Source: Solibacillus sp. FSL H8-0538
Lineage (GTDB): Bacteria > Bacillota > Bacilli > Bacillales_A > Planococcaceae
Assembly: GCF_038003525.1 (NCBI RefSeq)
Contig: NZ_JBBOPI010000001.1
Coordinates: 983,001-1,047,000, forward strand
Reading direction: 5' to 3'
Length of the DNA: 64,000 nt
The position numbers were made by a program, and so were the translations under genes. Positions 13,926-56,759 of this stretch are shown here, piece after piece. The stretch's first letter is position 1, and every line of letters begins with the position of its first letter. The notes beneath the pieces were generated by a model. It was not told where the DNA came from. It worked only from the letters and a program-made list of their open reading frames with translations, and made no database searches.

Positions 13926-14024
13926 TATAGCGAAACTTTATAAAGTGTAAGGCATAGGGGATGTATCTCACGATGGTTTTGCTATTCATTGCGGGAAAAT
14001 TAAGTATTGTTCATGAATGAATTG

Positions 14025-14060: not shown

Positions 14061-14120
14061 TGCAACGTTAGGCATTGTCAACAGCGGCAAAAATATTAAT
14101 CGCAATACTTTATTAAATAG

Positions 14121-14170
14121 CCAGGGCTGTGTCAAAAATGAGGACTTACACTTTTGCCATAGCCTCTTGG
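14121..14170. repeat. Long imperfect hairpin in the fakA-sdaAB gap
   Basis: GGCTGTGTCAAAA (14125-14137) pairs with TTTTGCCATAGCC (14152-14164), and outer CCA/TTGG extends the stem. The arms resemble the GGCTGTGTCAAAA hairpins seen at ends of some Firmicute insertion sequences and as bidirectional terminators. No transposase is nearby. Confidence 0.55.
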
Positions 14171-14272
14171 CGTATTTAATAGAATATGGGATAAATTTGT
14201 TGTTTTGTGTAATATAAAGGGAATGGTAAACTGATATTATTAAATATCACAAAAAATAAGGGGGTAATTGGT

Positions 14273-14935: not shown

Positions 14936-14948
14936 GGGGTGAGTGTAA

Positions 14949-27914: not shown

Positions 27915-29273
27915 ATGGCATTTGAAGGATTGGCAGACCGACTCCAAGGAACCATCCAAAAGATTAAGGGTAAAGGTAAAGTTTCTGAGCAAGACGTTAA
28001 AGAAATGATGCGCGAAGTCCGTTTTGCATTAATTGAAGCGGACGTTAACTTAAAAGTCGTAAAAGAATTCGTTAAAAAAGTTAGTGAGCGTGCTGTGGGC
28101 TCTGACGTCATGAAAAGCTTAACACCTGGCCAACAAGTCATTAAAATCGTACAAGAAGAGCTAACAAATTTAATGGGTGGCGAACAAAGCCCGATTAAAT
28201 TTAACACGAAGCCACCAACTGTTATTATGATGGTCGGTCTTCAAGGTGCCGGTAAAACGACAACTACAGGTAAATTAGCAAACGTTTTACGTAAAAAGTA
28301 TAATCGTAAGCCGTTACTTGTAGCAGCTGACGTTTACCGTCCAGCCGCTGTTCAACAGCTCGAGACATTAGGTAAGCAGCTATCTCTTCCAGTATTTGCA
28401 CTAGGCACAGATATTTCACCAGTGGAAATTGCGCGCCAAGCATTAGAGCATGCGAAAGAAGAACACTATGATGTAGTTATTATCGATACAGCAGGACGTT
28501 TGCATATTGACGAAACATTAATGCAGGAATTAAAAGATATTCGGGCATTAAAAGAGCCGGATGAAGTGTTCCTAGTTGTCGATGCAATGACAGGTCAAGA
28601 TGCAGTAAACGTTGCGCAAAGCTTTAATGAAGCAGTCGGCATTACTGGTGTCGTATTAACGAAGTTAGACGGTGATACGCGTGGTGGTGCAGCACTTTCA
28701 ATCCGTGCTGTAACGGAAAAACCAATTAAATTTGTCGGTATGGGTGAAAAAATGGATGCGCTTGAGCCATTCCATCCAGAACGTATGGCATCTCGTATTT
28801 TAGGAATGGGCGACGTGTTATCGCTAATTGAAAAAGCGCAAGCAAACGTCGATATGGAAAAAGCGAAAGAGCTTGAAGAAAAGTTCATGACGCAAACATT
28901 CACATTGGACGATTTTGTCGAGCAATTACAAGCGGTGAAAAAAATGGGACCACTGGAAGATTTATTAAAAATGATTCCAGGTGCCGGCAAAATGAAAGGC
29001 CTAGACAACGTAAAAGTTGACGAAAAGCAAATGGGTCACATTGAAGCAATCATCTATTCGATGACACCTGCAGAAAAGACGAATCCAGAAATCATTCAAG
29101 CAAGCCGTAAAAAGCGTATTGCGACAGGTTCAGGTAGATCGATTCAAGAAGTCAATCGTCTGTTAAAACAGTTCGAGGAAATGAAAAAAATGATGAAGCA
29201 AATGACGGGAATGACATCAGGAAAAGGCAAGAAGAAGATGAAATTACCTGGATTTGACTCGTTATTTAAATAA
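27915..29273 (+). CDS. ffh: Signal recognition particle protein Ffh
   Basis: This is the SRP54 homologue that binds signal peptides and SRP RNA. The N domain (1-90) leads to the G domain with GLQGAGKTT, DTAGR and TKLDGDTRGG. The methionine-rich M domain (about 300-452) ends in a Met/Lys-rich stretch (KKMMKQMTGM, GKKKMKLPG). The 452 residues are normal. GGGGGCGA-type SD precedes the ATG. It is co-transcribed with ylxM. Confidence 0.96.
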   Translation: MAFEGLADRLQGTIQKIKGKGKVSEQDVKEMMREVRFALIEADVNLKVVKEFVKKVSERAVGSDVMKSLTPGQQVIKIVQEELTNLMGGEQSPIKFNTKPPTVIMMVGLQGAGKTTTTGKLANVLRKKYNRKPLLVAADVYRPAAVQQLETLGKQLSLPVFALGTDISPVEIARQALEHAKEEHYDVVIIDTAGRLHIDETLMQELKDIRALKEPDEVFLVVDAMTGQDAVNVAQSFNEAVGITGVVLTKLDGDTRGGAALSIRAVTEKPIKFVGMGEKMDALEPFHPERMASRILGMGDVLSLIEKAQANVDMEKAKELEEKFMTQTFTLDDFVEQLQAVKKMGPLEDLLKMIPGAGKMKGLDNVKVDEKQMGHIEAIIYSMTPAEKTNPEIIQASRKKRIATGSGRSIQEVNRLLKQFEEMKKMMKQMTGMTSGKGKKKMKLPGFDSLFK

Positions 29274-29310
29274 AAAATTACGTATTTTTTAAGGTGTTAA
29301 GAAAAAACAC

Positions 29311-29339
29311 TTTACAAACATCACAAACATTGATAATAT
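29311..29339 (+). promoter_or_regulatory. Candidate sigma-A promoter of the rpsP operon
   Basis: TTTACA (29311-29316) and TAATAT (29334-29339) have 17-nt spacing, 39 nt before the rpsP start. Confidence 0.6.
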
Positions 29340-29377
29340 ACTATCTTGTGTGAAACTTATTCGGAGGTGCTATTAAA

Positions 29378-29650
29378 ATGGCAGTTAAAATTCGCTTAAA
29401 ACGTATGGGAGCTAAAAAATCTCCTTTCTATCGTATCGTAGTTGCAGACGCTCGTTCACCACGTGACGGTCGTCAAATCGAAACAGTGGGTACTTATAAT
29501 CCACTTACTACTCCAGCAACAGTTGCTATCGATGAAGAGAAAGCTCTTAAATGGTTAGCTGATGGCGCAAAACCATCTGATACTGTACGTAACCTGTTCT
29601 CAGAACAAGGTATCATGGAGAAATTCCATAACCAAAAATTCAGTAAATAA
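29378..29650 (+). CDS. rpsP: Ribosomal protein S16
   Basis: This small-subunit protein is needed for 30S assembly. It begins [26 protein letters not shown], split here only for quotation length: VKIRLKRMG then [12 protein letters not shown] are the family signature. The 90 residues are exactly the Bacillus length. It has a strong SD (CGGAGGTG) and its own promoter, and heads rpsP-khpA-rimM-trmD-rplS. Confidence 0.97.
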
Positions 29651-29665
29651 TCGGAGGTGCCGCAC

Positions 29666-29899
29666 TTGAAGCAGCTGATTGAGGCAATTGTGAAACCATT
29701 AGTCGATTATCCAGAAACAGTTCGTATTGAGACGGACGAGAATGCTAATCGAGTTGTTTATAAGCTTTTTGTTCATCCAGAGGATCGAGGGAAAGTCATA
29801 GGCAAGCAAGGGCGCGTTGCGAAAGCAGTTCGTACTATTGTTTATTCAGCGGCGAGCGGTTACCATAAGAAAAAGACTTACGTCGATATATTGGATTAA
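29666..29899 (+). CDS. khpA: KH-domain RNA-binding protein KhpA (YlqC)
   Basis: This small KH protein of 77 residues typically forms a heterodimer with KhpB/Jag and binds many RNAs. The KH signature GKVIGKQGRVAKAVR (GxxG loop) is near residues 43-57. TTG 29666 is the likely start because CGGAGGTG ends 6 nt before it; the in-frame GTG at 29657 is inside that SD. It lies between rpsP and rimM as in other Bacillales, with a terminator-like hairpin at its end that may attenuate the downstream genes. Confidence 0.92.
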   Translation: MKQLIEAIVKPLVDYPETVRIETDENANRVVYKLFVHPEDRGKVIGKQGRVAKAVRTIVYSAASGYHKKKTYVDILD

Positions 29900-29935
29900 A
29901 AAGAGGTGGGAGCAGCGGCTTCCCCTTCTTTTTTT
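29899..29935 (+). terminator. Terminator or attenuator after khpA
   Basis: AAGAGGTGGGAG pairs imperfectly with TTCCCCTTCTT and is followed by seven T. It stands within the rpsP-rplS group, so partial read-through is probable. Confidence 0.65.
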
Positions 29936-29981
29936 ATATAAACACATATAAATAGGAAATACTAAGCTAGAGGTGAACAGT

Positions 29982-30500
29982 ATGGAATGGTTTAACGTAG
30001 GACGGATTGTGAATACACACGGGATTCGTGGAGAATTACGCATAATTTCAACATCAGATTTTGAAGAAGATCGCTTTGCGGTTGGCAGTAAGTTAGCAGC
30101 ATTTAAAAAGGATGATAAAAAACCGACATGGATTACAATCGGTTCAGCACGTCGTCATAAAAACTTTATATTAGTTACATTTGAAGGCATGGAAAATATT
30201 AATTTAGTTGAGCCTTTTAAAGAGGGTTTGCTAAAAATTACGATGGACCAATTAGCGGATGATGAGCTAGAAGAAAATGAATACTACCACTTTGAAATCA
30301 AAGACTGTGAAGTGTATTCAGAAGAAGGCGAATTAATCGGTGTTGTCACGGACATTTTAGAAACGGGTGCCAATGATGTATGGGAAATTAAAGCGAGTGG
30401 CGGCAAAAAATACTATATTCCGTATATTGAAGATGTCGTGAAGGAAATTAATGTAGAAGAAAAGAAAATTACGATTCATGTGATGGAAGGCTTATTATAA
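29982..30500 (+). CDS. rimM: 16S rRNA processing protein RimM
   Basis: This 30S maturation factor binds S19. The N-terminal RimM barrel begins [20 protein letters not shown], and a C-terminal PRC-barrel covers about 95-172, containing [25 protein letters not shown] 29982 is chosen because AGAGGTG lies 6 nt upstream; an in-frame GTG at 29973 falls within it. The 172-residue protein overlaps trmD at TAATG. Confidence 0.94.
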
Positions 30501-31234
30501 TGAAGATTCATGTACTTAGCTTGTTTCCTGATATGTTCGAAGGTGTTTTTGGCGCTTCGATTTTAAAGAAGGCGCAGGAGAAAGGCGCTGTTAGTCTAGC
30601 GGTATCTGATATCCGCAACTTCACAGATAATAAGCATAAGCAAGTAGATGATTATCCGTACGGGGGCGGCGCGGGCATGGTGTTAAAGCCGGAGCCGATG
30701 TTTAACGCTGTAGAAGCGATTACAGAGGGTCGTACGCCGCGTGTCATCTTAATGTGTCCACAAGGCGAACGCTTCAATCAGAAGAAGGCTGAAGAGCTTG
30801 CTCAAGAAGAAGAGCTGGTTTTCCTTTGTGGTCATTACGAAGGCTATGATGAGCGCATCCGTGAGCATCTTGTAACGGATGAAATTTCGATTGGTGACTT
30901 TGTATTAACGGGTGGCGAATTACCTGCAATGACGGTTATTGATGCGGTTGTGCGATTACTACCTGGCGTTCTAGGTCAAGCCGATTCTCATATCCAAGAT
31001 TCGTTCTCTACAGGACTACTTGAGCATCCTCATTACACACGTCCAGCTGATTTTAGAGGGATGAAGGTGCCTGATGTACTGACGAGCGGTAACCACGCAA
31101 AAATTGAAGCGTGGCGTGAGGAGCAGTCATTTAAGCGTACACTAGAGCGTCGTCCAGATCTTTTTGAAGCACTTGAGTTATCGCCAAAGCAATTAGCGAT
31201 TCTAGAAAAATTAAAAGCAGAAAACGAAAAATAA
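30500..31234 (+). CDS. trmD: tRNA (guanine-N1-)-methyltransferase TrmD
   Basis: It methylates G37 of tRNAs, preventing frameshifting. The SPOUT trefoil-knot fold is supported by [25 protein letters not shown] and [15 protein letters not shown], where the SAM-binding knot lies, and a catalytic Asp in the C-terminal part. The 244 residues match the family. It overlaps rimM by one nucleotide and precedes the L19 leader structure. Confidence 0.96.
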
Positions 31235-31238
31235 GGTG

Positions 31239-31336
31239 CTTGCACGCAATGAATATTTGTGGTAACATTCATTCTGTACTTCTATGTGGAGTACTGAATT
31301 ACGGTGTTCCGCTGTGGCCCAAATAGGTGCGTGCAT
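31239..31336 (+). ncRNA. L19 leader-like structured 5' UTR of rplS
   Basis: A closing stem, TGCACGC (31241-31247) with GCGTGCA (31329-31335), encloses three hairpins. They are AATGAAT/ATTCATT, GTACTTC/GGAGTAC, and ACGGTG/CGCTGT with two wobbles. The multibranch fold just before rplS fits the L19 ribosomal protein leader known from Bacillales, thought to allow autoregulation by L19. No transcript termination hairpin follows it. Confidence 0.72.
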
Positions 31337-31363
31337 GAGCATCTGTCTAAGGAGAGAAAAACA

Positions 31364-31708
31364 ATGTCAAACATTATTACAGAAATCACTAAAGATCAAC
31401 TTCGTTCTGACCTACCTTCATTCCGTCCTGGTGACACTGTTAAGGTACACGTTAAAGTTGTTGAGGGTACTCGTGAGCGTATCCAATTATTCGAAGGTGT
31501 AGTTATTAAACGTCGTGGTGGCGGAATTAGCGAAACTTTCACAGTGCGTAAAATTTCTTACGGCGTTGGTGTAGAACGTACTTTCCCAGTACACACACCT
31601 AAAATGGCTAAATTAGAAATCGTTCGTAAAGGTAAAGTTCGTCGTGCTAAACTTTACTACCTACGTAACCTACGTGGTAAAGCTGCGCGTATTAAAGAAA
31701 TTCGATAA
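31364..31708 (+). CDS. rplS: Ribosomal protein L19
   Basis: This 114-residue large-subunit protein sits at the 30S-50S interface. The family block [16 protein letters not shown], followed by [10 protein letters not shown] and the basic tail [22 protein letters not shown], is clear. ATG 31364 lies 7 nt after AAGGAGAG; longer in-frame translation would run into the structured leader and lacks an SD. A terminator follows at 31721. Confidence 0.97.
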
Positions 31709-31720
31709 TCACTTTTTAAG

Positions 31721-31754
31721 AAAGGGGCTTGTTAATACAAGCTCCTTTTCTTTT
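31721..31754 (+). terminator. Terminator after rplS
   Basis: AAAGGGGCTTG pairs with CAAGCTCCTTT (one G-U), loop TTAATA, then a pyrimidine/T-rich tail. Confidence 0.88.
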
Positions 31755-31757
31755 GGT

Positions 31758-31837
31758 AGTGAAGAAAATTTCACTTTTTTTACCTCATAAAAAGGACAAC
31801 ATCTCGCCCTATTTTGGGGCGGGATGTGTCTTTCTAA
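31758..31837 (+). repeat. Two-hairpin intergenic repeat, copy A
   Basis: Hairpin 1 is AGTGAA/TTCACT followed by seven T. Hairpin 2 is built from GACAACATCTCGCCC and GGGCGGGATGTGTC around TATTTTG. The second hairpin and the ATAA linker recur in copies B (32551) and C (48104). Confidence 0.75.
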
Positions 31838-31879
31838 AATAAAAAAGCGGTAATCTATTGTGATAATCGGATTATTTTT

Positions 31880-31908
31880 TTGCTTGTAATACATATTTCG
31901 TTTACAAT
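31880..31908 (+). promoter_or_regulatory. Candidate sigma-A promoter of lepB
   Basis: TTGCTT (31880-31885) and TACAAT (31903-31908) are 17 nt apart and 31 nt upstream of the lepB start. Confidence 0.6.
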
Positions 31909-31938
31909 AAAATGGTGATATATGAGGGGGACATCTGC

Positions 31939-32502
31939 GTGGAAAAAACTCAAAAAGAAAAAAATGAGCTTTGGGAATGGACGAAAGCTCTACTAATAGC
32001 ATTCGCAATTGCAGCATTCATTCGTTACTTTTTATTTACACCAATTGTAGTTGATGGGGAATCAATGATGCCAACCCTTGAAAATGGCGATCGTATGATT
32101 GTGAATAAAATTGGCTATAAAATTGGTAGTCCGGACCGATTCGACATTGTCGTCTTCCATGCACCAGAGCAAAAGGATTATATTAAACGTGTAATTGGTT
32201 TACCGGGTGACTATGTGGAATATAAAGATGATCAACTATATATTAATGGTGAACCGATCGATGAGCCATATTTAGAACCGTATAAAGCCGAAATTACAGA
32301 AGGTAATTTAACTGGTGATTTTACATTACGTGATATTAATCCGTCTCTAGATGTAATTCCCGAAGGCTCTATTTTTGTAATGGGTGACAACCGTCGTTTT
32401 AGTAAGGATAGCCGCCATATCGGTCTTGTAGACCAAAAAGAAATCATCGGTAATACTAGCATTATTTTCTGGCCTTTAAATGAAATTGAAATCGTTAAGT
32501 AA
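31939..32502 (+). CDS. lepB: Type I signal peptidase LepB
   Basis: This membrane-bound Ser/Lys protease cleaves secretory signal peptides. A short cytosolic N terminus (about 15 residues) precedes one membrane helix (TKALLIAFAIAAFIRYFLF). The nucleophile is in GESMMPTL and the general base Lys is in KDYIKRVIGLPGD; the C-terminal GDNR box is present. GTG 31939 follows GAGGGGGA by 7 nt, giving 187 residues, the Bacillus single-helix type; the longer frame lacks an SD. Its place between rplS and rbgA is seen in several Bacillales, though not B. subtilis 168. Confidence 0.93.
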   Translation: MEKTQKEKNELWEWTKALLIAFAIAAFIRYFLFTPIVVDGESMMPTLENGDRMIVNKIGYKIGSPDRFDIVVFHAPEQKDYIKRVIGLPGDYVEYKDDQLYINGEPIDEPYLEPYKAEITEGNLTGDFTLRDINPSLDVIPEGSIFVMGDNRRFSKDSRHIGLVDQKEIIGNTSIIFWPLNEIEIVK

Positions 32503-32517
32503 TTAAATAAACGATGG

Positions 32518-32550
32518 ATGAGGAGGTTCCTGCAATCTCCTCATTTTTTA
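32518..32550 (+). terminator. Terminator after lepB
   Basis: ATGAGGAG (32518-32525) and CTCCTCAT (32537-32544) form a perfect 8-bp stem followed by six T. Confidence 0.9.
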
Positions 32551-32622
32551 GTGGATAAGAAGAGAATATCCACATAAATAAGACAACATCTTGCACTATT
32601 TTGGAGGAAGATGTTTCTTTCT
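32551..32622 (+). repeat. Two-hairpin intergenic repeat, copy B
   Basis: Hairpin 1 is GTGGATA/TATCCAC, followed by the ATAA linker. Hairpin 2 runs from AGACAACATCTTGC to GGAAGATGTTTCTTTCTAA around CTATTTTG. Immediately downstream, 32628-32646 repeats the 19-nt hairpin-1 core of copy C exactly. Confidence 0.75.
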
Positions 32623-32660
32623 AAAAAGATAAGAAAGTATAACTTTTTGATAATGTCTAG

Positions 32661-32772
32661 GCATTCGCGCCGCACGCTCGAAGTCGCTTCGATCCCTCGG
32701 GCGAAAGTGGGGGAGCATTTACTTTCGCTTCGTGCTCGCAAGCAGCTGTCGCGTGCAAACGGGCGCGAATGC
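32661..32772 (+). repeat. GC-rich multi-hairpin block upstream of rbgA
   Basis: A perfect 11-bp closing stem, GCATTCGCGCC/GGCGCGAATGC, encloses CGAAG-TCG-CTTCG and GCGAAAGT/ACTTTCGC hairpins. It ends 39 nt before the rbgA start. A degenerate relative may occur at 39273-39430. It may be a leader RNA or a dispersed repeat. Confidence 0.65.
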
Positions 32773-32811
32773 GCTTTTCTTATATTGAATACAACAAAGG
32801 AGGAATTCACC

Positions 32812-33687
32812 ATGACAATTCAATGGTTCCCAGGACATATGGCGAAAGCTCGCCGACAAGTATCGGAAAATCTGAAGCTAGTCGACATTATTTTTGAGTT
32901 AGTCGACGCACGCCTGCCGTTATCCTCACGTAACCCGATGATTGACGAAGTAATTAACCAAAAGCCACGCCTGCTTATTTTAAATAAACAGGATATGGCG
33001 GATGAGCATGAAACGCGTAAATGGATTGCGTATTTTGAGGAGCGCGGGCATAAGGCGGTAGTGATTAACTCGTTAGAGGGTAAGGGGCTACAGGCAGTAA
33101 CAAAAGCTGCGCAAGAAGTGTTAGCAGAAAAATGGGCGCGTATGAAATCAAAAGGGATGAAGCCACGTGCTATTCGTGCGATGATCGTTGGTATTCCAAA
33201 CGTAGGGAAATCGACACTTATTAACCGATTAGCCAAGAAAAACCTTGCGAAAACAGGGAATATGCCAGGTGTGACGAAAGCGCAACAATGGATTAAAGTA
33301 GGCAAAGAAATCGAGCTACTGGATACACCAGGGATTTTATGGCCGAAGTTTGAGGATCAAGAAATTGGCTATAAACTAGCATTAACAGGTGCGATTAAGG
33401 ATACGATTACAAATATGGAAGACCTAGCTGTATACGGGCTAAATTTCCTATCTGTTCATTATCCAAAACGTATGGAAGAACGCTACGGCATTACAGCGGT
33501 TGACGAAGAATTAGTCGTAACATTTGACCATATCGGTAAGCTACGTCGCGTATTTGGACAAGGCGGGGAAGTTGACTATGACCAAGTATCACAACTAATC
33601 GTTCGTGATATTCGTAATCAACATCTGGGTAAATTGACATTTGACTTCGTTTCTGAGCAACTTGAAAAAGAGCGAGAACAACAATAA
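32812..33687 (+). CDS. rbgA: Ribosome biogenesis GTPase RbgA (YlqF)
   Basis: This circularly permuted GTPase acts late in 50S assembly, helping incorporate L16 and others. It begins with [14 protein letters not shown]4 (LNKQDM) precedes G1 (GIPNVGKST) and G3 (DTPGILWP), confirming the permutation. The C-terminal ANTAR-like RNA-binding region follows. ATG 32812 has AAAGGAGGA upstream at good distance, giving 291 residues (282 in B. subtilis). The longer open frame from 32611 runs through the hairpin repeats and is rejected. Confidence 0.95.
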
Positions 33688-33696
33688 TTTGATGAG

Positions 33697-33735
33697 ACCT
33701 TTTTCACTACGGTGAAAAAGGTTTTCTTATTTTTT
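33697..33735 (+). terminator. Terminator after rbgA
   Basis: A perfect 11-bp stem, ACCTTTTTCAC/GTGAAAAAGGT, with a TACG loop, is followed by a T-rich tail. Confidence 0.92.
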
Positions 33736-33740
33736 TGGTT

Positions 33741-33858
33741 CTTTACCGAAACATGTGCTTTACTTAAAAAGAAAGTGTACTACTTTATAAGCACATGGAA
33801 CGGAAAGCGTCCGCCTGGAGTGGAATGTGCTATTAAGTACAGATTCTGGTGTAGAGCC
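33741..33858. repeat. Internally deleted 118-bp copy of the GC-rich element (inverted)
   Basis: This is the reverse-orientation relative of 11167-11430. It keeps both ends (CTTTACC...GCACATGGAACGGAA, then GCCTGGAGTGGAATGTGC...GTAGAGCC). It lacks the middle 146 nt, exactly the distance between two 9-nt near-identical direct repeats in the full copy. Confidence 0.8.
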
Positions 33859-33920
33859 CTTATTTTATAATAAAAGAAATAATCCGATAAAACATATAGA
33901 CAGGTACAAGGAGTAATAAC

Positions 33921-34694
33921 ATGACAACAATTAAAGAAATTACAGAAGCATTGAAACAAGCACAGCAGCAAGAACCTTGGATGGACGCTATTGTGCAAGA
34001 TGAACGCAGTGGTGTACAAAAGGCGTGGGCGCAGTTCCAAAAACGTCTGCAGAAGCAACAGCAACTACAAGACGCTCATACGGAAAAGCTAGCCTTTGAT
34101 GCGTCGTATTTACCACATCCTGATGCATTCATTGCAGGCACGGATGAGGCCGGGCGTGGGCCGCTAGCAGGGCCAGTAGTGACAGCCGCTGTTATTTTAC
34201 CGAATTACTGTGGAGAACTACTTGGTATTAATGATTCCAAACAGCTATCAAAAGAAACGCGTGAAAAATTTGTTGCGATGATTAAGACGCATGCGATTGC
34301 TTATGCTGTTCATTTCCAACCGGCGGAAGTAATAGATGCGATTAATATTTACGAGGCCACGAAGCAGTCGATGAAGGCAAGTATTGAAGCGCTTGAAATA
34401 AAACCAGATTTTGTGTTAGCGGATGCGATGACGCTACCAATCGATATCCCGCAAGCGTCGGTTATTAAAGGCGATGCGAAAAGCTTGGCTATTGCTGCGG
34501 CATCAATTTTAGCAAAAACCGCGCGTGACGACTATATGGAACAACTTCATGAACTGTTTCCGCAATACGGTTTTGCCCAACATGCTGGTTATGGAACGAA
34601 GCAACATTTAGAAGCGCTAGAAAACTACGGACCAACTGAGCATCATCGCAAAAGCTTTGAGCCAATCAAATCCATGATTGTACAAAAGGAGTGA
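33921..34694 (+). CDS. rnhB: Ribonuclease HII
   Basis: It removes ribonucleotides and RNA from DNA-RNA hybrids. The catalytic core is TDEAGRGPLAGPVV near residues 74-87, with the further acidic residue in VLADAMTLP and DAKSLAIAAASILAK. A 70-residue N-terminal extension, rich in Gln and Lys, is typical of Bacillus RNase HII (257 aa here, 255 in B. subtilis). An AAGGAG SD precedes ATG 33921. It precedes ylqG after 6 nt. Confidence 0.95.
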   Translation: MTTIKEITEALKQAQQQEPWMDAIVQDERSGVQKAWAQFQKRLQKQQQLQDAHTEKLAFDASYLPHPDAFIAGTDEAGRGPLAGPVVTAAVILPNYCGELLGINDSKQLSKETREKFVAMIKTHAIAYAVHFQPAEVIDAINIYEATKQSMKASIEALEIKPDFVLADAMTLPIDIPQASVIKGDAKSLAIAAASILAKTARDDYMEQLHELFPQYGFAQHAGYGTKQHLEALENYGPTEHHRKSFEPIKSMIVQKE

Positions 34695-34700
34695 CGAGAC

Positions 34701-36605
34701 ATGACCTCAACATCATTTAATCCGATCCAAATGCAAACGAAAAATGTGCAGCTTAATCAGCCGCTTACATTAAAACAAGGACAAGTGTTTCACGGGACGA
34801 TTAAGCAATTGTATCCCGATCAAATGGCAGAAGTGCAAGTTGGTAGTCATAAGCTGATAGCAAAGCTTGAAGTGCCGTTAAAAGTCGGTGACGCACATTT
34901 CTTTCAAGTGACGAATACAAATGCCCAAACGGAGCTAAAAGTTGTTACAGGGCCTATGACGCAAACGATGACACCAACACAACAGCTAAATCAGCTATTG
35001 GACTCCATGAATTTACCAAAAACGTCAGAAATGCAACAGGTTATGTCGCATTTTATGAAGGAACAAGTACCGATTTCAAAAGGCCAGCTCGTGCAGGCAG
35101 AGGCTTGGATGAAAAATTTAGCTGAAGGCAATATAAAACAAGATGCGCTTGTTGCATTGCAGCGCATGATTGAATTGAAAATGCCGTTTACAAAGGATGT
35201 ATTTCAGGCACTCATACAAGGGGCAAAAACAGATGGTATATCAGCTACATTAGCGAATTTGGCGCAGCTGTTAGCAAACCAAGCAGGAGGCAATGAAGCA
35301 TTAAAGTCCAATGTATTGCAGCAAATTCAGGCGCTTGCAAAACCGTTTGATGCAGAAATAGGTGGTGTAATTTTAGCGCGTGCGATGCAAACATTAACAG
35401 ATTTAACAGCACCACTTGCTGTTAAAACTCAGGCACTCACGATGCTGAAAGAGATGGGTGTGCTACCGCAATCAGCCAATTTACAAAACTGGTCTGTACA
35501 AAGCATGCAGCAAATTTCTCAAGCTAGTCCGGTAACATCCATTACCCAGGCAGGTCAAGTAGTCCAACAAATTATGAACGCCAAGCCTGAAAATAGTATG
35601 CTGTTGGTTGAACAAGTGAAGTCTTGGATCTCCAATGAAAGCTTGTTGACATCTAATCAAAAGGAACAACTGCAGCAACTTGTTCAACGATTTACCCAGC
35701 TACCACAAAATAAACAAACACTCGAAGTTTTCGCTAAACAAATGCAAGAGCAATTTGCAAAGGCTTTTTCGGAAAATACTGCAAGTCGTCTATTTACACA
35801 AAACGACAATGGTTTATCGACGAAGGACCAATTACTATCTTTAATGAAGCCAGACGCACACATGCAAACTAACGACGTACTATTCCGCAATTTAGTGAGA
35901 GTGGCGACAGACTCCCCACATCCAGCAGTTCAAACACTCCTTACACAGTCGGAATCGCAAGTACAGGTGGCTATTGATAGCAAAGCGATGGAGCAAGCGA
36001 TGAAAACGGTGCTAAAGGGGCTAGGGATTAGTTATGAGGCAGCATTATCAAATAAGTCAGCAACCGACGTTCAAGTAATTGCCCAACAGCTAAAACCTCA
36101 ACTGCTAGCACTTATTCAAGATGTCCAAACACCGTCAACACTAAAGGATTCAGCCGAGACGGTAATAGCCCGTATGAACGGGATGCAATTATTATCAAGT
36201 GAAAACGGTCATCAGCATCAGCTGGTTATGCAAGTACCACTTGAATTTTTCGGTAAAAAGATGGACGCTACGTTGCAATGGAATGGACGCATGAAGGACG
36301 ATGGGAAAATTGATGCCAATTATGCCAGGGTTCTGTTTTATTTACAAATGGCATCGCTACAAGAAACAGTCGTGGATATGCAAGTACAAAACCGTGTTAT
36401 TACGATTAATGTCTTTAATGACAATCCGAATATTGATGTACTAGCGGAACCTCTTAAACAAACGTTAAAACAAGGTTTAGGAGAGAAAGAATATCATTTA
36501 TCTGGCGTCTTTATTAAACCGTTTGAAAAATCAATATCAGAAAAAGGTAGACAAAATTCAAAAGATGATATGGAACAGCAGAGCGAGGTGGATATTCGCG
36601 TATGA
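34701..36605 (+). CDS. ylqG: YlqG-like protein with FliK-like C-terminal domain
   Basis: This 634-residue protein occupies the position of B. subtilis ylqG, a gene without a known function. The N-terminal 80 residues form a beta-rich region (LTLKQGQVFHGTIKQLYPDQ, VGDAHFFQV). A long Gln/Leu/Met-rich helical middle follows (about 90-480). The last about 130 residues (LVMQVPLEFFGKKMDATLQW, VLFYLQMASLQETVVDMQVQ, INVFNDNP) resemble the hook-length-control domain of FliK. It overlaps by 4 nt a gene encoding a FlhB C-terminal fragment, its expected partner. The FliK resemblance is an inference from pattern; no secretion signal or membrane segment is seen. Confidence 0.75.
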   Translation: MTSTSFNPIQMQTKNVQLNQPLTLKQGQVFHGTIKQLYPDQMAEVQVGSHKLIAKLEVPLKVGDAHFFQVTNTNAQTELKVVTGPMTQTMTPTQQLNQLLDSMNLPKTSEMQQVMSHFMKEQVPISKGQLVQAEAWMKNLAEGNIKQDALVALQRMIELKMPFTKDVFQALIQGAKTDGISATLANLAQLLANQAGGNEALKSNVLQQIQALAKPFDAEIGGVILARAMQTLTDLTAPLAVKTQALTMLKEMGVLPQSANLQNWSVQSMQQISQASPVTSITQAGQVVQQIMNAKPENSMLLVEQVKSWISNESLLTSNQKEQLQQLVQRFTQLPQNKQTLEVFAKQMQEQFAKAFSENTASRLFTQNDNGLSTKDQLLSLMKPDAHMQTNDVLFRNLVRVATDSPHPAVQTLLTQSESQVQVAIDSKAMEQAMKTVLKGLGISYEAALSNKSATDVQVIAQQLKPQLLALIQDVQTPSTLKDSAETVIARMNGMQLLSSENGHQHQLVMQVPLEFFGKKMDATLQWNGRMKDDGKIDANYARVLFYLQMASLQETVVDMQVQNRVITINVFNDNPNIDVLAEPLKQTLKQGLGEKEYHLSGVFIKPFEKSISEKGRQNSKDDMEQQSEVDIRV

Positions 36606-36895
36606 GCGAAAAGAAATATGTACGAAAAGAGGCAATTGCACTTTCCTATAATCCTACCAAAAGCAATGGTCCAACAGTTGTCGCGAAGGGGAAGGGGAAA
36701 ATTGCAGATACGATATTAGAGCAGGCGGCACTACATGATGTGCCTGTTTATGAGGATCCAAACCTCATGCAACTGTTGGGGCAATTGGATTTGAACGCAT
36801 CTATTCCAGAAGAATTATATCAGGCGGTAGCGGAAGTTTTTGCCTTTATTTATCGTTTAGACGAGCAACATCATGCATTAAAAAGTAAGTTATAG
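36602..36895 (+). CDS. ylqH: YlqH, stand-alone FlhB C-terminal (FlhB-CC-like) protein
   Basis: This 97-residue soluble protein matches the part of the flagellar export switch FlhB that lies after its autocleavage site. FlhB-like blocks are AIALSYNP (FlhB: AVALKYDP), PTVVAKGKGKIAD, DVPVYEDPNLMQLL, and IPEELYQAVAEVFAFIYRL. The NPTH cleavage tetrapeptide itself is absent because the protein starts just after it. There is no membrane part. It is translationally coupled to ylqG (ATGA overlap). It is followed by a strong terminator. Confidence 0.88.
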   Translation: MSEKKYVRKEAIALSYNPTKSNGPTVVAKGKGKIADTILEQAALHDVPVYEDPNLMQLLGQLDLNASIPEELYQAVAEVFAFIYRLDEQHHALKSKL

Positions 36896-36952
36896 AGAAG
36901 GAAGTTAAGCGGCAGGTACGAGGTTATTATTCGCAGTCCTTTAGTTAGTAGT

Positions 36953-36988
36953 AGAGAACGTGTCAAAATTGACATTTTCTCTTTTTTT
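36953..36988 (+). terminator. Terminator after ylqH
   Basis: AGAGAA/TTCTCT and TGTCAA/TTGACA form a nested stem, followed by seven T. It ends the rbgA/rnhB-ylqG-ylqH group. Confidence 0.88.
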
Positions 36989-37147
36989 GCACCCATTTTT
37001 TAGTGTTTTTTAACATAAAATAGAATAAACTGTAATTTTTAAAAGATAATCATACACGAAAGACAAATATGGACATTGTCTGAATGTTTGTATAAAATAG
37101 ATTATGTTAGTAAAATAATTTCCAAATGTCCGATGGGAGGATGTATT

Positions 37148-38329
37148 ATGAATATCCATGAATATCAAGGTAAAGAGATCTTGAGAAAATACGGAGTAGC
37201 AGTTCCGAACGGGAAAGTTGCTTTTTCTCCAGATGAAGCAGTTAAGGTCGCAAAAGAGCTTGGATCCAATGTAACAGTTGTAAAAGCTCAAATTCACGCA
37301 GGTGGCCGCGGTAAAGCGGGCGGCGTAAAAATTGCTAAAAACCTTGATGAAGTTCGTTCATATGCAAAAGAAATGTTAGGAAAGATTTTAGTCACACATC
37401 AAACTGGTCCAGAAGGTAAGGAAATTAAACGCCTTTATATAGAAGAAGGATCTGATATTCGCAAAGAGTACTATTTAAGCTTAGTACTAGACCGTGCAAC
37501 TTCACGTGTTACAGTGATGGGCTCTGAAGAAGGCGGTATGGATATCGAAGAAGTAGCCGAAACAAATCCTGAAAAAATCTTTAAAGAAGTCATTGATCCT
37601 GTAACAGGTTTACAACCGTTCCAGGCACGTCGTATGGCTTTCAATATGAATATACCACCGAAGTTAGTAAACAAAGCAGTAAAGCTAATGCTTGGTCTGT
37701 ACCAGGCATTTGTAGACAAAGATGCATCGATTGTAGAAATTAATCCATTAGTGGTAACAGGCGATGACCAAGTTGTTGCGCTTGATGCAAAATTTAACTT
37801 TGATTCTAACGCACTATATCGTCATAAAGACATTGTAGAATTACGTGATTTTGATGAGGAAGATCCAAAAGAAATTGAAGCATCTAAATATGACTTAAGC
37901 TATATTTCATTAAACGGCAATATTGGCTGTATGGTTAATGGGGCAGGTCTTGCGATGGCTACGATGGATACAATTAGCTATTACGGCGGCTCACCCGCTA
38001 ACTTCCTTGACGTTGGGGGCGGCGCGACAGCTGAAAAAGTTACGGAAGCATTTAAAATCATTTTATCTGATCCACAAGTAAAAGGGATTTTTGTTAATAT
38101 TTTTGGTGGAATTATGAAATGCGATATTATTGCTGAAGGTGTTATTATAGCAGCAAAACAAATCGGTTTAGCTGTACCACTAGTGGTGCGTTTAGAAGGA
38201 ACAAATGTCGAACTTGGTAAAAAATTATTAAATGAGTCGGGCTTAAACATTGTTGCTGCAGATTCTATGGCTGACGGTGCGCAAAAAATCGTTAATTTAG
38301 TAGCTGACGAAGGCGAGGTTACATCATGA
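37148..38329 (+). CDS. sucC: Succinyl-CoA synthetase beta subunit (ADP/GDP-forming)
   Basis: It forms succinate and ATP/GTP in the TCA cycle together with SucD. An N-terminal ATP-grasp domain begins [17 protein letters not shown], with [16 protein letters not shown]; the C-terminal CoA-ligase domain has GLAMATMD and [13 protein letters not shown] 37148 is chosen since GGGAGG ends 8 nt upstream; the longer open frame lacks an SD. The 393 residues compare with 385 in B. subtilis. It overlaps sucD by 4 nt. Confidence 0.96.
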
Positions 38330-39228
38330 GTGTGTTCATTAATAAAGAGACAAAAGTAATTGTACAAGGGATTACAGGCGAAACAGCACTTTTCCATACA
38401 AAACAAATGTTAGAATACGGTACGAAAATCGTTGCCGGAGTAACACCTGGTAAAGGCGGTCTTGAAATTGAAGGCGTTCCAGTATTTAATACGGTACAGG
38501 AGGCAGTTGCAGAAACGGGTGCCAATGTATCTGTTATTTACGTACCAGCCCCATTTGCAGCAGATGCGATTTTAGAAGCGGTAGATGCTGAATTAGATTT
38601 AACAATTTGTATTACTGAGCATATCCCAGTACTGGATATGGTAAAAGTAAAACGTTACATGGAAGGTAAGAAAACACGTTTAGTTGGTCCAAACTGTCCA
38701 GGTGTTATTTCGGCGGATGAATGTAAAATCGGTATTATGCCAGGCTATATTCATAAAAAAGGACATGTTGGAGTTGTATCACGTTCAGGTACTCTAACGT
38801 ATGAAGCTGTACTGCAATTAACACAAGCGGGCATTGGACAAACTTCGGCAGTAGGGATTGGTGGAGACCCGGTAAACGGGACAAACTTTATCGATGCACT
38901 CGAAGCATTCAATGAAGATCCAGAAACATATGCAGTAGTTATGATTGGTGAAATAGGTGGTACAGCGGAGGAAGAAGCTGCTGAATGGGTGAAAGCAAAT
39001 ATGACAAAACCGGTAGTTGGTTTCATCGGTGGCCAAACAGCACCTCCTGGCAAGCGTATGGGACATGCTGGAGCGATTATTTCAGGTGGTAAAGGTACAG
39101 CGGCTGAAAAAATTAAAGCAATGAATGCAGCTGGAATTGAAGTCGCTCCAACGCCTTCAGTTATTGGAGAAACATTGATTAAAGTAATTAAAGAAAAAGG
39201 TCTATACGAAGTTTGTAAGACACATTAA
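38326..39228 (+). CDS. sucD: Succinyl-CoA synthetase alpha subunit
   Basis: This is the CoA-binding, phosphohistidine-carrying subunit. The CoA-binding Rossmann domain begins with [20 protein letters not shown], and the ligase domain carries the active-site histidine in [16 protein letters not shown] and [10 protein letters not shown] are family motifs. The 300 residues are standard. The ATGA overlap with sucC indicates coupled synthesis of a 1:1 complex. It is followed by a terminator. Confidence 0.97.
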
Positions 39229-39233
39229 AATGA

Positions 39234-39265
39234 AGGTGTAGCGTTCCATGCGCTACATCTTTTCT
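39234..39265 (+). terminator. Terminator after sucCD
   Basis: AGGTGTAGCG (39234-39243) pairs with CGCTACATCT (39251-39260, one G-U), followed by TTTTC and further T. Confidence 0.9.
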
Positions 39266-39272
39266 TCGTTCT

Positions 39273-39430
39273 GATGTCCATGCATTCACGCCAAATGCAA
39301 TTTGTGACGAATAACCGATGGAACACCATCCTCGAGGTCGCTTTGGTTCGGCCTGATGTAGAGCAGACCGTTATTGCCGCATGGATGTGATTTAAAGCAT
39401 CAGGGATGTAAATGGGAATGAATGTGCTTT
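39273..39430 (+). repeat. Degenerate hairpin-rich block upstream of dprA
   Basis: GCATTCACGCC begins it and GAATGAATGTGC ends it, with the inner TCGAGGTCGCTTTGGTTC resembling the block before rbgA. CCTGATG/CATCAGG and GATGG/CCATC are internal hairpins. The similarity to 32661-32772 is partial. Confidence 0.4.
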
Positions 39431-39485
39431 CTACTTGTGCGGTCATTTTAAATAAATTTCTTCTATTTAAATGAGGAGTGATAAA

Positions 39486-40382
39486 ATGACAAACCAAATT
39501 GATTTACACAAATTGCTTACACTACACTACGTATACCCTCTACCATTTCATAAATTTCAACGTCTACAACAGTATATAAGCACGCTTGATCAACTTGCGG
39601 AATTCCCATCCCCACAGCTTGCGACAATTTTAAACTTAACAGTAGCGAATGCGCGTGCATTAAAAGAACATTACTTGCGTATGCTCGAAGTACCATTAGC
39701 AGAGCATTATGCACTAGAAGGAATTTCGCCAGTTCCTTTTACAAGTGAGTTTTACCCAAAAAAGTTATTGCAGTTAATTGACCCCCCTACTGTGCTGTAT
39801 GCTAAGGGCGATATTTCATTACTGCAAAAACCCAAAAAAATTGCCGTCATTGGCTCGAGGCAGGCAACAAATTATACTGCGGAGGCATTACAATTATTAT
39901 TACCGCCACTTATTGAACATGATTATGTTATCGTCAGTGGTCTTGCCAAAGGGGCAGATAGTCTCGCACATAAGGCTGCGATTTTTTACGGCGGAAAAAC
40001 GATAGGTATTTTAGGGCATGGCTTCTTTCATTTGTATCCAAAAGAAAATAAGCAACTTGCGGAAGAAATGGCACAACATCATTTGTTATTGACGGAATAT
40101 CCACCATATGTAAGTGTGAAAAAATGGCATTTCCCGATGAGGAATCGTATTATTAGTGGTATAAGTGACGCGCTTGTTGTAACAGAAGCAGCACTAAAAA
40201 GTGGTACACTCATTACAACGGAGCATGCACTCGATCATGGGAAAGATGTATTTGTCGTACCTGGACCGATTACTTCAGAGCAGTCAAAAGGGACTAATAA
40301 AATCCTAAAAGAAGGAGCAATTCCGGTTTGGAATGGATATCAAATAATAGATGAAATGCAAATGTTTTCAAGTTTTAGTTGA
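39486..40382 (+). CDS. dprA: DNA processing protein DprA (Smf)
   Basis: This RecA loader for incoming single-stranded DNA in natural transformation also occurs in non-competent bacteria. The Rossmann-like DNA-binding fold shows IAVIGSRQATNYT, VSGLAKGADSLAHKAAI and RNRIISGISDALVVTEA. A short N-terminal SAM-like helical domain precedes it. ATG 39486 is preferred since GAGGAGTGA ends 5 nt upstream (an ATG at 39471 lies before it). Length 298 is typical. The topA gene follows after about 220 nt. Confidence 0.94.
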   Translation: MTNQIDLHKLLTLHYVYPLPFHKFQRLQQYISTLDQLAEFPSPQLATILNLTVANARALKEHYLRMLEVPLAEHYALEGISPVPFTSEFYPKKLLQLIDPPTVLYAKGDISLLQKPKKIAVIGSRQATNYTAEALQLLLPPLIEHDYVIVSGLAKGADSLAHKAAIFYGGKTIGILGHGFFHLYPKENKQLAEEMAQHHLLLTEYPPYVSVKKWHFPMRNRIISGISDALVVTEAALKSGTLITTEHALDHGKDVFVVPGPITSEQSKGTNKILKEGAIPVWNGYQIIDEMQMFSSFS

Positions 40383-40437
40383 AAAAAAGTTGCAATATCC
40401 GTAAATCTGTTATACATTTTGCAACAGGTATTGCTTT

Positions 40438-40482
40438 GAATTTAGTTCAGCGATGTGAAATACACATTGCTGAATTAAATTT
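40438..40482 (+). other. About 20-bp hairpin between dprA and topA
   Basis: AATTTAGTTCAGCGATGTG pairs with CACATTGCTGAATTAAATT (wobbles only, no mismatch) around an AAATA loop. No T tract follows. A 7-bp GTTGCAA/TTGCAAC inverted repeat lies just upstream (40389-40425). It could be the dprA terminator, an RNase III site or a topA leader. Confidence 0.7.
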
Positions 40483-40606
40483 GTCTTCGGCGGATGTCTC
40501 GGATTTTCAAATTAGTGCATGGTGCTCTCACAATGCACAATCTGGACAGCAAATGCGTCAAGGCGTATTTGATTAAAAAGTAACCTCTCTAAGGGGGAAA
40601 GAATAG

Positions 40607-42691
40607 ATGGCAGATTATTTAGTAATAGTAGAATCACCTGCGAAGGCGAAAACAATTGAACGTTATTTAGGAAAAAAGTATAAAGTAAAAGCTTCTATTG
40701 GACACGTGCGCGACTTGCCACGTAGCCAAATGGGAATTGATACAGAAAATAATTATGCACCTAAATATATTACAATACGCGGAAAAGGACCTGTACTGCA
40801 AGATTTAAAATCCGCAGCAAAAAAAGTTAAGAAAATCTATCTCGCGGCCGATCCAGACCGTGAAGGGGAAGCAATCGCATGGCATTTAGCGACAGCATTA
40901 AACATCGATATTGAATCGGATTGCCGCGTTGTGTTCAATGAAATTACAAAAGACGCAATTTTAGAATCGTTTAAACACCCACGTCCAATTAATATGGATT
41001 TAGTTGATGCACAACAAGCCCGTCGAATTTTAGACCGCCTTGTTGGCTATAATATAAGTCCTATTTTATGGAAAAAGGTTAAAAAAGGGCTATCAGCAGG
41101 GCGTGTTCAATCGGTTGCGCTACGTCTTATAATTGACCGTGAAAATGAAATTAAAAGTTTCGAGCCAGAGGAATACTGGACAGTCGATGCAAGTTTTGAA
41201 AAAGGTAAAAACCAATTTGACGCTCTTTATTATGGCAATGGTACTGAAAAAGTGAAGCTAACAAATGAAGCACAAGTGAAAGACGTGCTGAAAAATATCA
41301 AAGGTGATCATTTTGAAGTAATGAATGTCGTGAAAAAGGAACGTAAACGAAATGCAGCACCAGCCTTTACAACATCTTCGTTACAACAAGAGGCTGCACG
41401 AAAATTGAACTTCCGTGCAAAGAAAACGATGATGCTGGCTCAACAACTCTATGAAGGAATTGAGCTAAGCAAAAAAGAAGGCGCAGTTGGATTAATTACG
41501 TATATGCGTACAGACTCAACGCGTATTTCTGATACAGCAAAAGCAGAAGCCGTAAGCTATATCGAAGGGAAATATGGCAAAGAGTATGTTGCTACAGAAG
41601 TAAAGCAAACAAAAAATAAAGCGAATGCACAAGATGCCCACGAAGCTATTCGTCCAACATCTGCTATGCTTACACCAGAAGAGTTGAAAGCAGTGCTTAG
41701 CCGTGATCAATTACGTCTGTACCGCTTAATTTGGGATCGTTTTATTGCTAGTCAAATGTCATCCGCTATACTAGATACAGTGACAGTAGATTTACAAAAC
41801 GAAGATGTATTATTCCGTGCGAACGGTTCTCAAGTGAAGTTCGCGGGTTTCATGAAGCTTTATATTGAAGGCACAGACGATCAAACAGAAGAAACGAACA
41901 AGCTATTACCAGAAATGGCGATTGGCGATAAAGTGAAAACGTTAGAAATCGAACCGAAACAGCACTTCACACAGCCACCACCACGCTATTCTGAGGCGCG
42001 ATTAGTAAAAACGCTAGAAGAACTAGGTATAGGTCGTCCGTCAACGTATGCACCGACACTTGATACAATTCAAAAGCGCGGCTATGTTCAACTGGATGCG
42101 AAGCGTTTTGTACCAACAGAGCTTGGCGAAATCGTACACCAGCTCGTACTTGAGTTTTTCCCGGAAATCATCAATATTGAGTTCACAGCAACAATGGAAC
42201 GTGATTTAGATGATGTCGAGGAAGGTATGACAGAATGGGTTAAAGTAATTGATGCATTTTACCGTGATTTTGAGCCACATGTGAAGCATGCGGATGAAGT
42301 GATGGAAAAAATCGAGATTAAAGACGAGCCAGCTGGAGAAGACTGTGAAAAATGCGGTAATGCAATGGTGTATAAGCTAGGACGTTATGGCAAATTTATG
42401 GCTTGTTCTAACTTCCCAGACTGTCGTAATACAAAAGCGATTATGAAATTAATTGATGTGAAATGCCCAACATGTAAGGAAGGCGAAATCGTTGAGCGTA
42501 AAAGTAAAACGAAGCGTCTATTCTACGGCTGTAATCAATACCCAGAATGTGACTTCGTATCATGGGATAAGCCGATTAGTAGACCTTGTCCGAAATGTAG
42601 TGCATTATTAGTTGAAAAGAAACTTAAAAAAGGTGTTCAAATCCAATGTACAAACACAGAATGTGATTATGAGGAGACACCTTCACAATAA
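40607..42691 (+). CDS. topA: DNA topoisomerase I
   Basis: This type IA enzyme relaxes negatively supercoiled DNA. The N-terminal Toprim domain begins with [17 protein letters not shown] and carries [12 protein letters not shown]. The active-site tyrosine is in [12 protein letters not shown] near residue 300. Three C-terminal four-cysteine zinc ribbons follow, starting [15 protein letters not shown] and CPKCSALL. Length 694 matches B. subtilis TopA (691). AAGGGGGAAAG is the SD. It lies between dprA and trmFO, the usual order. Confidence 0.96.
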
Positions 42692-55532: not shown

Positions 55533-56759
55533 ATGAATATCGCAATGTTACAAACAACGTCAAAAGCATTGTCAGCACAAACAAACACACAACAAACTAC
55601 TGCTACTGGCAAAAGCAATGAATTCGGTTCAGTCTTTAGTCAGATTATGTCTACTACAAACAAGCCAACTACAACAGAGTCTACAACAGCACCAGTAACA
55701 CTGGAGGGCGTAGAAGTCGTTCTAGCTACGGATTCACTGGAAGAGCTACTGGATACGTTAGGTATTCCAACGGATGAAAATATGTTATTTGCTTTTGTCG
55801 GCGAGGGCGAGCAGCCTGTTGCCATCGATCAAATGTTAACACTTGAAGATTTAACAGCAGCACTTGGCATGACCGAAGAAGAACTAACGGCAATCGTGCA
55901 AAAGCTTATAGGTGAAGAGACTCCAATTACAGACGTATGGTCAATCATTGAGCAAGCGCCAGCAATTCTTACGGAAATTGTTGCAGTATTACAAGGGAAT
56001 CAACAAAATGTGACACCTAAGGAAGCGCAGCAAATTGTTCAGTTTTTAAAACTCGCTGAATTACTAGGCTCCAAAACCGACACCATGTATCAGCAAGAAG
56101 TTCAATTGTCTCAGTTGAAAGAGACGCTTCAAAATGCGCTCACACAAGTTCAGCAATCGACAGCTCAGCAGGAAGCGCCAAAACCGGTATTCCAACAAGT
56201 AATTCAGCAAGTTGTACCGCAAACGGCACAACAAACAGTTAAGCAAGAAACGGATTTAACACAAACAACTGCAGTACAGCAGCAAACAATGACGCAAACT
56301 AAAACAGTTACAATTACGCTGCCTGCTGAAAAGCCAGCACAATCTGAGGCGCTACTGAAGGAAATTCAAGCAATCATTAATCGGAGCCAATTGTCCGGGC
56401 AACAAGGGAATATGAAGCTTTTGCTAAAGTTATATCCAGAAAATCTGGGACAAATTCGTATTGAGTTAATTCAAAAAGATGGCATTTTAACGGCGCGTTT
56501 ACTAGCATCTACAGCCTTAGGTAAGGACTTACTAGATAGCAATTTAAATCAATTAAAATCGGCCTTTGTCGCACAAAACATCCAAATGGAGCGCATTGAC
56601 ATTTCACAGTCCCTACAAGATACAGAACGCAATACGCGCGATCAAAGCTTATTTAGTAACTTCTTTAAGCAGCAAGCAAAAGAAGAAGAAAAAGATCATG
56701 AGGATGACGAAGAGGGTGAATCATTGTCGTTTAGTGAACTATTAAATGAGGAGGTGTAA
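55533..56759 (+). CDS. fliK: Flagellar hook-length control protein FliK
   Basis: This secreted ruler switches export from hook to filament substrates. The N-terminal half is Thr/Gln-rich and low in complexity. The C-terminal Flg_hook domain (about 275-370) contains LLLKLYPENLGQIRIELIQK and LKSAFVAQNIQMERIDIS. An acidic tail ends the 408 residues. GGAGGTGAAA is the SD. It is followed after 3 nt by flgD. A second FliK-like protein is encoded at 34701. Confidence 0.92.
   Translation: MNIAMLQTTSKALSAQTNTQQTTATGKSNEFGSVFSQIMSTTNKPTTTESTTAPVTLEGVEVVLATDSLEELLDTLGIPTDENMLFAFVGEGEQPVAIDQMLTLEDLTAALGMTEEELTAIVQKLIGEETPITDVWSIIEQAPAILTEIVAVLQGNQQNVTPKEAQQIVQFLKLAELLGSKTDTMYQQEVQLSQLKETLQNALTQVQQSTAQQEAPKPVFQQVIQQVVPQTAQQTVKQETDLTQTTAVQQQTMTQTKTVTITLPAEKPAQSEALLKEIQAIINRSQLSGQQGNMKLLLKLYPENLGQIRIELIQKDGILTARLLASTALGKDLLDSNLNQLKSAFVAQNIQMERIDISQSLQDTERNTRDQSLFSNFFKQQAKEEEKDHEDDEEGESLSFSELLNEEV

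Follow-up and report, generated by a model that had tools for sequence, protein, structure and literature searches.

How the flagellar export gate changes its cargo has been under study for decades, and a locus of Solibacillus sp. FSL H8-0538 raises the question of what a second, separate copy of the parts involved in that change may be doing. We analyzed a stretch of 64,000 nucleotides (contig NZ_JBBOPI010000001.1, positions 983,001 to 1,047,000; hereafter the window, to which all coordinates refer) in which two genes, ylqG and ylqH, lie outside the flagellar operon. A preliminary description, from which the gene names are taken over, had called them a detached, pre-cut module of the FliK/FlhB specificity switch, and as a description of the parts this wording is right. 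We find that ylqG encodes a paralogue of FliK and ylqH a stand-alone FlhB C-terminal domain, and we consider it an even call whether the pair, apart from the operon copies of FliK and FlhB, forms an accessory module for specificity at the flagellar type III export gate. Bacillus subtilis has the same two genes, so that this idea would be testable in a standard strain.

The two genes are both open frames and co-directional on the forward strand, ylqG at 34701..36605 (634 aa) and ylqH at 36602..36895 (97 aa). They share a 4-nt overlap in which an ATGA (36602..36605, forward strand) provides the stop of the first and the start of the second; coordinates, frames and overlap were thus correctly given at the outset. 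In the named relatives, a set made up of the best 80 out of 260 found, ylqH comes immediately 3' of ylqG in 80/80, the junction is ATGA in 80/80, and an open reading frame (ORF) of the size of sucC follows within 700 nt of the pair in 78 of the 80. In B. subtilis, too, ylqH is located before sucC. The closest relatives of YlqH are those of Solibacillus and Lysinibacillus. The open frames listed include no fusion of ylqG with ylqH; the one that is long (G114, L254) is unconvincing.

YlqH covers only positions 262-335 of the 335 in PF01312 (E 3e-19, 69.8 bits against a cut-off of 24.4). It also matches the solved FlhB-C chain 3b1s_B (E 1.4e-13) and, in PHROGs, a single unnamed FlhB-like family. 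A complete FlhB combines a transmembrane part with an NPTH autocleavage site. YlqH has neither, and NPTH was found in 0/102 YlqH sequences of a class-wide set and 0/39 of a phylum-wide set, in agreement with the earlier alignment by eye, which had placed the resemblance to FlhB only after NPTH. YlqH corresponds to the cleaved C-terminal part of FlhB, including P287 and A341, which are invariant in 141/141 YlqH sequences. Both residues belong to the early-substrate docking pocket of FlhB, given as A286, P287, A341 and L344 in section 12 of PMC13344023. Unlike FlhB, the YlqH family has conserved residues of its own at sites where FlhB differs (G295 in 138/141 and D315 in 130/141), as well as a one-residue gap near 323-324 in 141/141. 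In a FastTree phylogeny of 191 rows and only 97 columns, a branch with support 99 sets all 52 FlhB rows apart, which gives YlqH the look of a long-separate family rather than a recent copy. The notion that a modified pocket defines YlqH was rejected: position 344 is F in 86/102 sequences of the class set, but L in 34/39 of the phylum set.

Searched directly, YlqG of the window gave no match to FliK in Pfam, in NCBIfam or, by phmmer, among PDB sequences. PF02120 gave no match over its cut-off in the protein itself, and comparison of a profile of the window's YlqG family with the FliK C-terminal domain (FliK-C) alone gave 0.1%; the first FliK set used for profile comparison had missed 16 of 30 loci. 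The link to FliK is visible through intermediates, structure and the C-terminal tail, and it is by these routes, and not from the window sequence alone, that the FliK likeness first claimed for the C-terminus holds. With hhalign, the C-terminal part of YlqG (YlqG-C) of the window's family aligned to that of other Bacilli families with E 1.8e-48, and to 32 phylum-wide upstream ORFs at 99.2% (E 1.4e-19). To obtain these 32, we started from 39 ylqH loci; an upstream ORF of more than 200 aa was present at 36, and four of the 36 were dropped as not YlqG-like. The phylum-wide YlqG-C set aligned in turn to 51 operon FliKs at 97.1% (E 7.5e-11), against 1.0% for a reversed control.

The relationship is also apparent from where PF02120 matches lie. 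In a phylum sample of 95 genomes, we searched 41 with PF02120, namely all 19 with FlhB but without a short FlhB of the YlqH type, and 22 of the 62 with one. Exactly one match per genome was found in 19/19 genomes without short FlhB. A second match was present in 15 of the 22 with it, and each of these 15 lies no more than about 1 kb from the short FlhB (downstream of it in G097). Seven of these 15 second matches exceed the cut-off (best E 4.6e-13), and six of the seven, rescanned as whole proteins, remained above it in 6/6 cases (30.8-47.1 bits). A class sample of 61 genomes yielded five matches beside short FlhB over the cut-off in the genome search. As whole proteins, only L117 of these passed, with L128, L118, L132 and L133 reaching 28.7, 28.4, 29.0 and 24.3 bits under a cut-off of 29.8 bits.

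An AlphaFold2 model of full-length YlqG, built with 63 sequences (mean predicted local distance difference test, pLDDT, 85.8), suggests three folded regions, all on the forward strand. An OB-like beta barrel is predicted at residues 28-81 (34782..34943) and a helical middle at residues 92-498 (34974..36194), in which 10-residue blocks have pLDDT 84-96 except for values of 61-69 at about 441-460. The third region, beta-rich and spanning residues 500-606 (36198..36518), is identified by PDB structure matches and the hhalign chain as a specificity-switch (T3S4) domain of the FliK/PscP type. Past residue 606, a disordered linker leads to the C-terminal tail. When the predicted C-domain (pLDDT 80) was compared with the PDB by Foldseek, the first two ranks by E-value were PscP SS (5cuk; prob 1.00, E 0.076) and FliK-C (2rrl; prob 0.99, E 0.24). 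The structural check called for in the preliminary description thus did not refute it, the C-terminus of YlqG matching FliK/PscP switch domains in predicted structure. Rank 3 had prob 0.38, and some unrelated lower rows reached 0.85-0.91. With the full YlqG model as query, PscP and FliK-C were again both present, now at ranks 7 and 23. The 50 rows that VIA-align returned for this full model contain no PscP or FliK; they are mainly OB folds and helical bundles, a list by which residues 500-606 were barely tested. OB-fold chains align to approximately residues 16-90 at Z of about 6-7, although the likeness of the barrel to OB folds may be just a common arrangement. PMC6972891 describes FliK as a ruler domain, a flexible linker, a core and a disordered tail; on that layout YlqG keeps the core and the tail and differs in front. 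Canonical FliK (PF02120) and PscP/YscP share with YlqG the C-terminal switch-domain fold and the last-five-residue tail; what sets YlqG apart is its OB-like barrel and helical body, and the window protein falls below Pfam detection.

The tail itself is EVDIRV in the window (36585..36602, forward strand), following the disordered linker, and GVDIRI in the family consensus; the terminus of E. coli FliK, GVDIFA, is close to GVDIR(I/V) of YlqG. The C-terminal pattern [VILMF][DN]xx[VILA] is found in 81/81 near YlqG sequences, 19/23 class-distant ones and 29/36 phylum upstream ORFs, and in 0/248 background C-termini. The codons of the tail vary and the tail is kept without gene overlap in L128 and L131, so the conserved constraint is on the protein and not on a ribosome site. 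According to PMC10965912, the FliK core (301-350) and the last five residues are important for switching. The operon FliKs native to the window's family have a different end: 0/28 carry a tail of the [IV]D[YF]xV type, ending instead in LNEEV, MEMEV or the like, whereas 32/41 other Bacillota FliKs carry it. The looser pattern does fit some native FliKs, such as those ending in LNEEV. A hand-over of the tail from FliK to YlqG as a general rule was rejected, the FliK tail being present in 15/19 phylum genomes without YlqH and 17/22 with it.

To ask which cellular system the pair accompanies, we compared its distribution with that of flagellar genes. In the class sample, short FlhB is present in 48/54 genomes with FlhA and 0/7 without (Fisher 3.9e-6), and in the phylum sample in 62/81 genomes with FlhB (two of which, G084 and G135, hold FlhB fragments) and 0/14 without (Fisher 4.0e-8), with p-values that are inflated by shared ancestry. 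The FlhA-positive, YlqH-negative class genomes are G001, G025, G030, G050, G056 and G060. Occurrence in many genomes lacking flagella and type III export, named beforehand as refuting a detached switch module, is therefore not what these samples contain. Two loose ends are G084, with YlqH and a piece of FlhB running into a contig end but no FlhA found, and G327 (84% complete), with a YlqH-like sequence and no FlhA found. The same counts bear on a role in the sporulation channel, or another non-flagellar role reusing type III parts. SpoIIIAE does occur in 38/48 YlqH-positive genomes of the class sample, but 10 lack it, four SpoIIIAE-positive aflagellate genomes have no YlqH, and the association of YlqH with SpoIIIAE (p 0.08) compares poorly with that for FlhA (p 3.9e-6). 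The pair follows flagella better than sporulation, and we regard this disfavored explanation as highly improbable.

Loss of the pair could be followed at its own site. At 7/7 sites of YlqH-less family members, rnhB is directly followed by sucC and the pair is missing; in the eighth genome inspected at rnhB-sucC, G012, it is present. Four of the seven pair-less members, in three genera, are aflagellate. The other three are flagellate, and their FlhA falls outside a native clade of 27 rows, along with that of the pair-bearing G011 and G029, a grouping that comes from a quick tree without G027. All family members with native-type FlhA in this tree (27/27) carry the pair. The label of orphan originally given to ylqGH accordingly holds for its position outside the flagellar operon and fails for its occurrence. 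One reading is that the pair was lost along with native flagella and that foreign flagella acquired later do without it. The repeated joint loss with flagella, the conservation of the tail while its codons vary and the old split of YlqH from the FlhB C-terminal domain at support 99 all argue against a functionless remnant of a lost second export system. The sparse literature on the pair would suit such a remnant, and we know of no phenotype for ylqG or ylqH, yet we find the idea scarcely credible.

Two observations attach to these genomes. FlhA of five family members (G001, G030 and G025, represented by L138, L137 and L139, together with G011 and G029) groups near that of G054, and the flagella of these five were probably replaced by transfer. 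In G027 (C1:486933-487957), FlhB is broken by stops in the PF01312 search, with FlhA and ylqGH present; the break is a frameshift or an assembly error.

Beyond the OB-like barrel, the helical middle and the conserved FliK switch tail, the present analysis adds to the preliminary description a finding on second copies of the pair. In 9/9 genomes found with a second-type pair (G046, G047, G051, G053, G102, G109, G148, G172 and G359), fliS and, after it, flagellin lie downstream of ylqG2-ylqH2 on its strand. fliS is mostly immediately past the pair; an extra ORF intervenes in G109, over about 0.45 kb, and in G148, over 1.5 kb. Pfam confirms FliS, flagellin or both in 7/9 of these cassettes (L129, L131-L133, L366, L367 and L369), and home-made profiles identified the genes in L368 and L370, as well as the partner gene where one alone was scanned. 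YlqH2 forms one group with support 92 (6 rows). Eight of 10 YlqG2 ORFs have, by eye, a barrel-like start, and the tail follows the strict pattern in six, has Y in first place in two and S for D in one, and is missing from a broken copy; YlqG of L368 was recognized from its position, overlap, barrel and tail rather than from a profile. In L134 (G047:C6, 7771-7953), the rnhB-linked ylqH is truncated to 60 aa, so that the cassette pair is the only full one of G047. In L366 (G359:C1:1329000-1346000), two tandem ylqGH pairs precede fliS and two flagellin-like ORFs at 1104-16389. One YlqG of this genome has 2316 aa and one flagellin-like ORF 1202 aa; the second ylqG is apparently frame-broken.

Because the YlqH2 profile was built from five cassette members, the nine genomes are not an unbiased survey, and the count leaves out a third match in G209. 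Among the next 25 loci found by the profile (L341-L365), fliS or flagellin lay within 1.5 kb in 0/25; a cassette can go unseen when flanks are short, as happened with L289 and L339 for G148. Flagellin was nearby in only one of 136 other loci, whose flanks differ. At this locus, L263 (G097:C2:99700-104700), the gene order is another one and the flagellar region is near: ylqH has flagellin on its upstream side and a FliK-like match on its downstream side, with full-length flhB about 16 kb away.

The flagellin beside second copies, the switch domain and tail retained in YlqG, and a YlqG length that ranges from 271 to 2316 aa among relatives would also fit a further secreted protein of the ruler or tape kind, served by YlqH as a switch of its own, that measures a structure other than the standard hook. 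This seems rather improbable, however, since the middle of YlqG is predicted to be folded and helical where FliK has a flexible linker (PMC6972891), and ylqG begins 6 nt after rnhB with no exact SigD-type site before it. The second copies bear as well on a nucleic-acid function tied to rnhB through an OB/S1-like N-terminal domain. It would draw on the OB-like barrel, on a weak S1 domain match in the distant YlqG of L125 (E 0.0014, below cut-off) and on the position after rnhB. In opposition, rnhB is kept where ylqGH is lost at 7/7 sites, and no RNase HII is present among the Pfam-scanned neighbors of second copies, which cover some neighbors only (fliS, flagellin, fliD, arginine and AIR-synthase genes), leaving such a function very unlikely.

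How the pair could act on the gate is suggested by a 2026 paper (PMC13344023) arguing that FliK ejects the FlhB C-terminal domain (FlhB-CCD); in its proposal, this domain holds the gate in early mode until FliK ejects it via its C-terminus. PMC3040844 states that HrcU-C can act in trans. From the computed identities, coupling, co-loss with flagella, tail, pocket residues and second-copy fliS-flagellin linkage, we infer that YlqG binds YlqH, that docking takes place at the gate, and in which direction late export is affected. Specifically, a free FlhB-CCD with conserved pocket residues, FliK elements that act on it and translation in tandem suggest YlqG as the holder of YlqH, with YlqH visiting or refilling the gate around the time of the switch. 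YlqH is a soluble, already 'cleaved' FlhB-CCD, and YlqG, which keeps the switch domain and the last-five-residue switch tail with an OB-like barrel and helical body in front, would most likely bind it as FliK-C binds FlhB-CCD, keeping YlqH in stock. At about the change from hook to filament, as the built-in FlhB-CCD is ejected by FliK, YlqH would then dock at the FlhB stub or the gate, and once docked would set or hold the gate for filament-type cargo; the fliS-flagellin cassettes point to the filament stage. A bolder and more doubtful extension, to which we lean less than to the module itself, is that Bacillota flagella carry exchangeable, cargo-linked switch cartridges. YlqH and its YlqG holder would occupy the gate after ejection of FlhB-CCD, and the ylqG2-ylqH2-fliS-flagellin cassettes would bring their own cartridge for the export of a particular filament protein.

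Several points weigh against an accessory switch module of this kind. With operon FliK and FlhB both present, the need for a second pair is not obvious. YlqH is absent from 6/54 flagellate class relatives and 19/81 phylum genomes, and is therefore dispensable for flagella as such. The filament link is present in second copies only, not in the window's own pair, and the conserved early-substrate pocket could equally mean a role in early export. The Foldseek E-values for PscP and FliK-C are weak, and the correlation between evolutionary rates of YlqG-C and YlqH vanishes after correction for neighboring genes (partial r 0.058, 72/80 loci).

In another explanation, YlqH is a backup FlhB-CCD, with YlqG as its chaperone, for cases of failed FlhB cleavage or folding, and takes no part in normal switching. 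In the title cited in PMC3040844, Wand et al. 2006 describe HP1575, the FlhB-C homologue of H. pylori, as a 'spare part' for deleted FlhB-CC, and 19/81 FlhB genomes manage without YlqH. Most of the flagellate genomes sampled nevertheless keep the pair, strictly coupled, conserved positions set YlqH apart from FlhB-CCD (G295, D315 and the one-residue deletion), and a pure backup leaves the fliS-flagellin cassettes unexplained. We consider this explanation unlikely, though it deserves more weight than a second ruler.

The accessory module would not be without precedent in its parts. FlhX, HP1575 and TIGR00789 are, like YlqH, stand-alone FlhB C-terminal domains. YlqH matches TIGR00789 (flhB_rel) with E 2.3e-29 but differs from it in scoring 101.4 bits, under the cut-off of 117.35, and H. 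pylori FlhX is set beside YlqH here by paper title and not by sequence. FlhX figures among the flagellar proteins listed in extracts of PMC10746217 and PMC9321776. The latter extract also names, for Nitratiruptor of the Campylobacterota, a short FlhB-C gene together with fliK outside the main flagellar cluster. This is another phylum, and that extract says nothing of overlap, domains or tail. FlhX and flhX-fliK linkage are thus already known and ylqGH is a variant of that kind, whereas the literature searched, in which few subscription papers were covered, contained no function for ylqG or ylqH and no ylqG2-ylqH2-fliS-flagellin cassette. An evolution study (PMC11523185) lists ylqG(P457Q), alongside further mutations, for four evolved clones of B. 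subtilis; this gives a lead rather than proof. Most flagellate Bacillota sampled encode a free copy of FlhB-CCD, as a rule in coupling with a FliK-like protein whose switch tail is the same, and in some a further such pair lies next to flagellin and its chaperone. Should the pair work at the gate, what FliK ejects would be replaceable, and specificity would perhaps be modular and linked to cargo.

The surroundings of the pair in the window are as follows. rnhB (33921..34694, forward strand) is co-directional, ends 6 nt before ylqG and is probably an operon partner of ylqG-ylqH. No exact SigD-type site was found near ylqG. A site with one mismatch lies at 33866-33889, just 5' of rnhB; as such sites are at chance level in the window (5 observed against 5.5 expected), they speak neither for nor against control of the rnhB-ylqG-ylqH unit by SigD. 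An Rfam scan of 29000-41000 gave no match, and a terminator-like site is located at 33694-33725, upstream of rnhB. The canonical fliK paralogue lies at 55533..56759 on the forward strand, at the separate operon location first reported for it, and encodes a PF02120 member (E 1e-13) with the tail LNEEV. Full-length FlhB and FlhA of the same genome sit just beyond the end of the window.

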